From positions 1 through 64,000 of the forward strand of contig JAOLZA010000006.1 in the NCBI GenBank assembly GCA_028343615.1: DNA of 64,000 bases. The letters run 5' to 3'. Source of the DNA: Verrucomicrobiota bacterium. GTDB lineage: Bacteria; Verrucomicrobiota; Verrucomicrobiia; Limisphaerales; UBA1100. The notes under the pieces were generated by a model, which was not told where the DNA came from, ran no database searches, and saw only the letters and a program-made list of their open reading frames with translations. Of this stretch, positions 34,759-37,830 are shown piece after piece. Position 1 is the first letter of the stretch; each line of letters begins with the position of its first letter. The position numbers and the translations under genes are program-made.

Positions 34759-35832
34759 TTATTTGTCGCCCCTCCAGGCCAGCAAATCCAATGCGCGGAG
34801 CCCTTTGGTTGTAAGTACCCAGCGCGCGCCTTTTTTGAAAACTAGCGAACTGCACGGATGTTCGCGGCGCACATCCTCGTTGACCTCGAGTAACTCAAAC
34901 CGGACGCCGCCTGCTTTTTTCTTCAACCCTTCCTCAAACAAAGGCTTGAGGCGGATTGGGATGGCATTAAAATTCAGATCAACTTCCCATGCCTTAACGG
35001 GAAGTGTTTCATTTTTGGCAGCCTGTATGACTAACCCAGGAAACCGTTCCGCCCATTCCAACTGTGCCTGATGAATGCGTACGCGACACAGTAGGGGTTG
35101 TTTGGAGATATGGGATGTGAAATTGAAACTTCCAGCTGTGTCTTGTTGCAAAATATCGGCGGCATCAAGTCCGAGAAGATTTATTCCATTCCATGCGCCG
35201 TGGTGATTTTTTCCGCCCCTATACCAATGGTTAAACCAGCTATCAAACTGCGTGTTGATTTGCAGTCCGATTTCAAAATGCAAATGTGCGCGATCCTTGG
35301 AGATAGCGTCTCTCGTATTGGTGGTACGCCCAAGAACTCCAAGTGTATCGCCGCCGGTCACGGACTGGTCGACTTTTAATCCTTCTCTAATTTTGCTTAA
35401 ATGGGCGTACAGTGAGTAAGCCTGTAGACCCTCAATTGCATGGCGCAACACGATATATTTCCCATAATTAGAAGCGCTGACATTGGGGTTAATATACGTC
35501 ACCACGCCGTCTCGAACTGCTCGCACAAGATCGGTTGGCTCGTTTTGCTCGTCGCGGTGCAGGGCGCGGATGTCGATCCCTTCATGAATGCGGGTGCGCG
35601 TGTTTCTCACACACCCGAAGGCGCCACTGCTCCATGGTCGCCCCGGACCGGTGGGTGCAAAAAAGTTTATTTCTTCGCCTGAGCGGAGCAGGGTGCGGTT
35701 TTCCGTGGGGAACAAAAATTTTGGTTTAGTGGCAGGTAGGGGCCGGACGGGCAGAACCGGTGTGGATGGCTCAGTGGGTCGCCCGCACCCAATTGCCACC
35801 GTTAAGAAGACCAGCCAAAGGCGCGGCCACAT
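34759..35832 (-). CDS. M23 family metallopeptidase, putative lipoprotein
   Basis: Lipobox-like AIGCG; HEGIDI and AHLHFEIG metal-ligand motifs; VRDGVVTYIN, GGDTLGVLG. Confidence 0.86.
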   Translation of the reverse strand: MWPRLWLVFLTVAIGCGRPTEPSTPVLPVRPLPATKPKFLFPTENRTLLRSGEEINFFAPTGPGRPWSSGAFGCVRNTRTRIHEGIDIRALHRDEQNEPTDLVRAVRDGVVTYINPNVSASNYGKYIVLRHAIEGLQAYSLYAHLSKIREGLKVDQSVTGGDTLGVLGRTTNTRDAISKDRAHLHFEIGLQINTQFDSWFNHWYRGGKNHHGAWNGINLLGLDAADILQQDTAGSFNFTSHISKQPLLCRVRIHQAQLEWAERFPGLVIQAAKNETLPVKAWEVDLNFNAIPIRLKPLFEEGLKKKAGGVRFELLEVNEDVRREHPCSSLVFKKGARWVLTTKGLRALDLLAWRGDK

Positions 35833-35835
35833 ACG

Positions 35836-36366
35836 TTATTGGGCCCCCACTTTCAAATTTAATTCCTCAACAATGAACTCCAGCTCCATACGGGAAGCAT
35901 CCGGAATTACATCCAGCACTCGGGCAGCGACAACCCCTTCAACGCGGTACGTCCCTACGCAGCATGATTTGAATTTCCCATTTTGCTTGGGGTCTGGCAG
36001 CGGGTATAGAAAAAACAAATTGCGCTGCAGGTAGCGACTCGTAATCCCTTCAAACTGGCGGGATCCAGCCGTGGTTAGCCAGAGCCTCAATATTTCGAAT
36101 CCCTGCTTATCCACAACCAGCTCGGCACTTTGAAGTCCATCAGCCACCCAAAACAACGGTTCCGCGTCTATCCATACCGATCGATTTGAAGCGCGAGGAA
36201 CCTCGATTTGAATCGTAAGCTGCACCCCTGCCGTTGCCGACTGGCCAAAAATGGCCATCTCATATTCATTGCCAGTATCACGCCCCGGCAATTTGCAACC
36301 GGCAAAACCTAGATTCAGGAGTGTTGCCGCCAAAATTAAATTGCACGTCCGCTGCATCGGCTTCAT
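35836..36366 (-). CDS. hypothetical lipoprotein
   Basis: Signal peptide with lipobox LGFAGC; start trimmed to MKPMQRTCN. Confidence 0.65.
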   Translation of the reverse strand: MKPMQRTCNLILAATLLNLGFAGCKLPGRDTGNEYEMAIFGQSATAGVQLTIQIEVPRASNRSVWIDAEPLFWVADGLQSAELVVDKQGFEILRLWLTTAGSRQFEGITSRYLQRNLFFLYPLPDPKQNGKFKSCCVGTYRVEGVVAARVLDVIPDASRMELEFIVEELNLKVGAQ

Positions 36367-36419
36367 ACTCACGGAGGCAACACAGAAAACCAAATTCAGT
36401 AAAGAGGAAGTAATTCACC

Positions 36420-36515
36420 ATGGGTCAACAAACCAACAAAGTGCAAAAGCGCCGGCGGCGCACTGACTACCTTAAGCGTAAAAAAACTACCACCAAAACC
36501 AAGGGCGGCAAGTAA
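36420..36515 (+). CDS. 31-aa highly basic microprotein MGQQTNKVQKRRRRTDYLKRKKTTTKTKGGK
   Basis: Own translation; SD-like GAGGAAG ~10 nt upstream of ATG, followed by intrinsic terminator; absent from ORF track (below its apparent 60-aa cutoff). Confidence 0.72.
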   Translation: MGQQTNKVQKRRRRTDYLKRKKTTTKTKGGK

Positions 36516-36535: not shown

Positions 36536-36552
36536 AACCCCTAGGGGTTTTT
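36536..36552 (+). terminator. intrinsic terminator downstream of microprotein gene
   Basis: Perfect palindrome AACCCCTAGGGGTT followed by TTT. Confidence 0.7.
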
Positions 36553-36779: not shown

Positions 36780-37830
36780 AGGTTCCTTGAAAGAACGGAG
36801 TATATTGCCGGGCAACTGGCACGAAACTCTCAGGATAAATCCCAGGAAACTGGGCGAAAGGGCAGGCGAGGCTGATTCGACTGCCCCCTTTGAAACGCCA
36901 CGAATTCGCGTTGAGATTCGGCTTGAACGTCACTTCGGTGATTGGATGGCCCTAAGGGAACGAGGAAAACCGAGCGCAGAAGAGGCACAGTTCACTTGAG
37001 TGGACGGTGGCGGTCGCACGCCATCGAATGCGATAAATCCACTCAAGAGGTTAGGGGCGAAACATACGGGCGCAAGCCCGGCAAGAAGCCGCCCTGATCT
37101 GGCTACGGAAAGCGCTGCACGCATCAGGCTCACTTCGGTGAACCCGATAATCCGTGACAGTTGCCGTACATAGCCCAGTTTGCGCAACCTTCGGGAGGCG
37201 TTAAACTGAGTCAAGTAGGTGCGAGCACGTTTCGAGCGAGCATCGAACGCAGTTGCCCATAGGGTGAAGATTACCTACTGCAGCATCAGCCCGGCGGGAA
37301 ACGAAAATTGGCCGGAAACGGCCAGCCAGACGAAATCCTCTGAAAAGAGGGACAAAGCTGGGGTCCCCGTCGGGATGGCCACGAGCCCAAGACAACGGCC
37401 GTGAAAACCATCCGACGCGGTGGCGATACAAAAACTGTAGCGCTGCCATGTGAACGAAATGGTAATCTGAGGGGTAAGAGGCGAGACCCGTGGCAAGGGC
37501 CAACGCACCGTCAAAAACGGTGGCCGACCCATGCTATCTGGCTTGGAAGTGAATAGTTCACATCCGCGTCCAAGCCTGGTCCGCAGGTCAGCGGCCGCAA
37601 CCACTGGCTGAAGCGGGCTTATAAACCTCACCCAACAATCCAAGTGCCGAAAGGCCTTGAACGGCCCTGCTATGAGGCCGACAACTCCGCGAGTCACGGA
37701 GAATGGCGTCGGGGAGCAACCGACCTGCATTGTGGGTGCCCAACGGTTGCATCGGGAAAGAGCGTGTGGCGAACGCCCACCCCCCAATTTGTCCCTGCTG
37801 GACTTCGGTCCGGCAGGGACCTTTTGTTTT
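36780..37830 (+). ncRNA. large (~1.05 kb) structured noncoding RNA, class not recognised
   Basis: No convincing CDS; at least 15 short-range stems, many with GNRA or C(UUCG)G tetraloops, all consistent with + strand transcription, ending at a strong intrinsic terminator. 5' end is an estimate. Confidence 0.8.
37791..37830 (+). terminator. intrinsic terminator of the large ncRNA
   Basis: GTCCCTGCTGGAC-TTCG-GTCCGGCAGGGAC (13-bp stem, one wobble) followed by CTTTTGTTTT. Confidence 0.9.

Follow-up and report, generated by a model that had tools for sequence, protein, structure and literature searches.

A conserved, strongly basic 31-residue protein of the Verrucomicrobiota as a candidate ribosomal protein

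In the stretch of Verrucomicrobiota DNA analysed here (64,000 nucleotides, referred to below as the window), a very short and strongly basic reading frame precedes a large non-coding RNA, identified as MISL, on the same strand. The question raised by this locus is whether so short a frame is a gene at all and, if it is, whether its product serves the neighbouring RNA, the ribosome or the nucleoid. The features relevant to that question are listed in Table 1. The frame is translated as MGQQTNKVQKRRRRTDYLKRKKTTTKTKGGK (31 aa), exactly as in the initial annotation, whose coordinates were likewise confirmed. Lysine and arginine make up 13 of the 31 residues (42%), slightly less than the half or so first claimed, and the product is strongly basic as stated there, with a pI of 11.9 and a net charge of about +11.5.

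Table 1. Features of the microprotein locus, and the bS22 orthologue of the same genome
Feature	Position	Strand	Evidence or remarks
Divergent small lipoprotein-like gene	35836..36366	-	Start likely 53 nt 5' of the microprotein start codon
SD-like element, TAAAGAGGAAG	36400..36410	+	One mismatch against TAAGGAGG
Microprotein gene, 31 aa, ATG...TAA	36420..36515	+	132/146 order genomes; genus dN/dS 0.03
Intrinsic-terminator-like hairpin at the end of the microprotein transcription unit	36536..36552	+	Terminator scan; similar in relatives
MISL RNA (RF03079), neighbour judged not to be a functional part	36833..37777	+	Rfam 502.9 bits, cut-off 274.6
bS22 orthologue of the window's own genome	G000:C113:1972-2070 (L246), outside the window		Homologues L232-L238

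Coding evidence, distribution and anatomy of the microprotein

Codons 1-22 of the microprotein gene were compared among six congeneric genomes, giving a dN/dS of 0.03 (pN 0.035, pS 0.594); the two shifted frames gave ratios of about 2.3-2.5 in the same genomes. Nucleotide changes in this gene within the genus are overwhelmingly synonymous. Lack of frame conservation in close relatives, or a dN/dS near 1, had been named beforehand as refuting the gene; neither was observed. A chance or non-functional frame might be suspected from a length of just 31 codons and from the lack of a curated family, but the in-frame ratio and the occurrence of homologues in several phyla make that explanation scarcely credible. 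It is apparent that the ORF is a real, functional, single-copy gene that is constrained at the amino acid level.

A single-sequence search detected the microprotein in 11 of the 20 genomes of the window's family, its own genome being counted. A profile built from those 11 same-family members (A1) was then applied to 146 genomes of the order and matched in 132 of them, including 83 of the 87 of high quality, nearly always as a single strong match with an open frame. Such near-universal presence in single copy, together with strong purifying selection, in a large clade is a trait of ribosomal proteins. Across the phylum, a further profile (A2, E ≤ 0.01) matched in 193 of 388 Verrucomicrobiota genomes and gave no match in the other 195. 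With a wider profile the microprotein was found in 8 of 40 KSB1-group genomes and 3 of 119 Planctomycetota genomes, the remaining 116 of the latter giving no match. Since it was not detected there, the protein would appear to be dispensable or diverged in many Verrucomicrobiota and in most Planctomycetota. The KSB1 members are diverged, mostly conforming to MGKQYN-x-REKRxRR-x-RYIKR, and several have an upstream SD such as GGAGG.

At least 117 contigs were retrieved with a degenerate DNA pattern over the family core. Among the matches listed are sequences from Verrucomicrobiota, Lentisphaerae, a few Planctomycetota, KSB1 and one Gemmatimonadetes (Gemmatimonadota) bin. Pattern matches in Patescibacteria (L080) and Clostridia (L105) were rejected as chance occurrences, the frame being interrupted or unrelated in them.

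The family core reads M-G/S-x-Q-x-N-K-V-x-K-R-x-R-R-x-x-Y-L-K-R-K-K. In an alignment of 61 members (A3), positions M1, Q4, K7, K10, R13, R14 and R20 are invariant, although the retrieval pattern, which spanned residues 4-14 and supplied many of the members, itself imposes some of this invariance; members fetched by profile do vary, with R at position 6 and, in KSB1, A, P or E at position 7. Strong conservation is also seen at N6, R11, G2, Y17, V8 and K22, and the C-terminal third is variable in both sequence and length among the 61 members. The invariant positions suggest one specific target rather than a generic coating of DNA. An AlphaFold prediction made with 24 sequences gives an extended segment (residues 1-6), a single helix (residues 7-28) and a loose tail, with a mean pLDDT of 84.

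In Akkermansiaceae/Roseibacillus (Verrucomicrobiales), members such as L060, L063, L113 and L176 carry the core followed by H1-like Lys/Ala/Pro tails (KKAPAKK) of 60-90 residues, and the tail of L101, from Opitutia, is longer still. Tails of this kind may give the microprotein an added nucleic-acid-binding role.

Relationship to the MISL RNA

The MISL RNA is indeed a same-strand neighbour of the microprotein gene, as first described; the distance of about 265 nt given in that description presumes an earlier 5' end, and the MISL match in fact begins 317 nt after the stop codon. To our knowledge, no function has been assigned to MISL. It had been suggested that the microprotein might bind this RNA or, alternatively, might be an independent factor, and co-occurrence of the two was proposed as a check.

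A genome-wide MISL search with strict filters detected this RNA in 69 of the 146 order genomes and in 18 of 194 other sampled genomes of the phylum, from outside the order (19 of 195 in the phylum sample). Two copies were seen in one genome, G314. The notion that the microprotein is a dedicated protein partner of MISL draws on their arrangement: MISL lies downstream at all 11 microprotein loci of the window's family and, of the 62 order genomes that encode the pair, 41 (by hand tally) carry it on the same strand, mostly 314-640 nt away. The presence of one is, however, uncorrelated with that of the other. Among the 146 order genomes, 62 have both, 70 the microprotein only, 7 MISL only and 7 neither (odds ratio 0.89, Fisher p = 1). 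When 37 of the microprotein-only loci were re-searched with permissive filters, no MISL was found within about 3 kb downstream, and in the seven MISL-only genomes no homologous microprotein ORF was found near MISL. At locus L116, a spacer of 15 nt that holds no MISL separates the microprotein gene from the cysK gene behind it, and none is listed for that genome in the genome-wide search. On complete chromosomes outside the order that encode both (G177, G250, G258, G281 and G287), the two are about 73-360 kb apart.

These results largely refute a dedicated partnership, which is now regarded as highly improbable, and the suggestion that the microprotein binds the adjacent RNA is unsupported, since each occurs without the other. 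The alternative, an independent factor, agrees with a distribution that is independent of MISL. That the two lie side by side reflects an inherited gene order and not a dependence in function, and separating the microprotein from the MISL question removes an attractive but mistaken candidate partner of that RNA. MISL occupies the space between the microprotein gene and cysK as a removable module.

Known small basic proteins and the likely function

By size and charge, the strongest candidate identity for the microprotein was bS22 (mS38/AURKAIP1-COX24). Both proteins have about 30-33 residues, are highly basic and largely form one helix, and both are single-copy, conserved on the scale of a phylum and widely overlooked by annotation. 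The bS22 of Borrelia has about 31 residues, 61% of them K/R (PMC10618245), and that of Cutibacterium has 33 (PMC10085706). This identity was nevertheless rejected. The bS22 profiles (Pfam PF08213, NCBIfam NF047430) matched none of the 61 microprotein family members, and an hhalign comparison gave a probability of 0.2%, with no detectable sequence relationship. PF08213 did give four marginal matches in the order, and reading them revealed a different gene of 33 aa (pattern MGS[LI]...WQK). In the PDB its product matches bS22-type chains exclusively, and in NCBIfam it matches ribo_bS22 alone, below the cut-off. This bS22 orthologue was found in 54 of 58 genomes of the order (39 of 39 of high quality); bS22 being separately encoded in these genomes, the microprotein is not bS22. 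In this order bS22 mostly scores too low for the Pfam COX24_C and NCBIfam ribo_bS22 cut-offs, so that most genomes probably lack an annotation for it.

An analogy with bTHX had also been drawn, and it stands as regards size and charge: both proteins are basic, have 27-31 residues and start with MGK or MGQ. In sequence it fails. The bTHX protein contains Gly, Pro and Trp, whereas the microprotein core is helix-compatible and free of Gly and Pro after residue 2. PF17070 (Thx) matched in none of 58 order genomes, with a positive Thermus control, and hhalign against a bTHX sequence entered by hand gave a probability of 0.4% and no alignment. Identity with bTHX was accordingly rejected. The microprotein also resembles eL41 and bL37, which are tiny basic ribosomal proteins (PMC10618245, PMC10085706), but eL41 and bS22 occupy one and the same site, for which these genomes already encode a separate bS22.

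Broader searches were uninformative as to identity. The family profile matched no PDB chain at E ≤ 10, which also sets the microprotein apart from eL41 and bL37. The PDB was searched with a single sequence as well, and a match to 4gmn (E 0.44) reflects weak similarity between basic sequences. Pfam and NCBIfam scans assigned the family to no curated family: the single match, of one of 61 members to the small domain DUF6800 (PF20607; E 0.0019, 18.7 bits), falls short of the 25 bits that the curated cut-off demands. Literature searches on MISL and on Verrucomicrobiota ribosomes and small proteins yielded nothing relevant, and the motif strings were found in none of the papers searched. The kind to which the family would belong is a known one, that of tiny basic RNA-binding proteins of ribosomal type. 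Curated libraries hold no model for this gene, which almost all genomes of a large order retain.

The microprotein gene lies outside ribosomal-protein operons, in a context that differs between lineages. In lineages other than that of the window, a YacP-like NYN nuclease gene is found on the same strand 11-87 nt downstream at 15 loci (L084, L106, L113, L132, L158 and 10 others), a RimO gene (named by inspection; Pfam gives UPF0004) 54-169 nt downstream on the same strand at 4 loci, and a LeuRS gene about 28 nt upstream, again on the same strand, at 2 loci. RimO, the modifier of uS12, and LeuRS are proteins of translation, and in Bacillus the ribosome is where YacP/Rae1 acts. The lineages with an adjacent YacP/Rae1-like NYN gene are several, and they do not belong to the order of the window.

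Size, charge and distribution all support the first impression of a tiny ribosomal or nucleic-acid-binding protein. The microprotein is probably a housekeeping, sequence-specific RNA-binding protein, and its likeliest identity is that of a small ribosomal protein of the Verrucomicrobiota that has yet to be described, or of an assembly protein bound tightly to the ribosome. Ribosome binding is suggested by its size and charge, near-universal single copy, conserved helix and the YacP/NYN, RimO and LeuRS genes beside it in other lineages; the single copy, tight core, basic helix and these gene neighbours are best explained by a small ribosomal protein, given that bS22 and bL38 were overlooked in Borrelia (PMC10618245) and bS22 and bL37 in Cutibacterium (PMC10085706). 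The ribosome of Opitutaceae (Verrucomicrobiota) was among the priority targets of a 2023 survey, being far from any solved structure (PMC10039652), which makes an unseen small protein plausible. In the ribosome the conserved N-terminal segment (M-G/S-x-Q-x-N) and the basic helix (residues 7-28, with the R11-R14 cluster, Y17, R20 and K21/K22) would lodge in an rRNA pocket and neutralise phosphates, as bS22, bL37 and eL41 do, and the variable, Lys/Ala-rich C-terminal tail would remain on the ribosome surface. Several observations speak against a ribosomal protein: the position outside ribosomal-protein operons in a varying context, the failure to match any solved chain, the H1-like tails of some members, and the lack of a match in 195 of the 388 phylum genomes and in most Planctomycetota.

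Two other functions have to be weighed against this proposal. The microprotein could be a cofactor of ribosome biogenesis or of rRNA/mRNA processing, in effect a small RNA chaperone and not a stoichiometric subunit; a basic helix, the proximity of YacP-like NYN and RimO genes and a location outside ribosomal-protein operons would all suit such a role. Retention in almost all genomes of the order and so tight a core are, however, explained at least equally well by a structural subunit, and the YacP and RimO adjacencies are lineage-specific; a cofactor is considered unlikely. Somewhat less likely again is a nucleoid-associated, histone H1-like DNA-binding peptide. The Lys/Ala-rich tails of up to about 90 aa in Akkermansiaceae/Roseibacillus could suit DNA binding, and a long-tailed member gave sub-threshold matches to HC2 and H1-like profiles. 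Against this, the tail is lineage-specific and absent from the window protein, which did not match those profiles, and what is conserved is a short N-terminal core (invariant Q4, K7, K10, R13, R14 and R20, with N6 and Y17 high) that is unlike H1 repeats. A ribosomal protein is therefore placed ahead of an assembly or RNA-processing cofactor, and the latter ahead of a nucleoid protein.

Should the microprotein prove ribosomal, the known subunits would grow by one in a phylum for whose ribosomes there was no close solved structure as of 2023. The chances appear about even that most Verrucomicrobiota lineages, with parts of KSB1 and Planctomycetota, have an undescribed ribosomal protein besides the poorly recognised bS22, in which case current inventories miss two subunits.

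Flanking signals and neighbouring genes

The SD-like signal reported 5' of the microprotein gene was found, as TAAAGAGGAAG. Its first five bases, TAAAG (36400-36404), resemble the 5' half of an SD and recur near position -11 in many relatives; in the 32 nt that precede the start, this motif was found at 66 of 166 distinct loci, against a background of 1.6%. It could represent either a weak form of the SD in the window's order or a specific leader element. As for the terminator claimed for the gene, a terminator-like hairpin reading AACCCCTAGGGGTT-TTTG (36536-36549) was identified by the scan, but its fold alone is unexceptional (z = -0.91). In relatives, GC-rich hairpins with a T run behind them can be seen 3' of the gene.

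No tRNA or tmRNA was found across the window. The divergent lipoprotein-like gene, for which no Pfam family was matched, has a similar counterpart at 46 related loci. Beside it lies an M23 peptidase gene (34759-35832, minus strand), which is conserved at 54 related loci.
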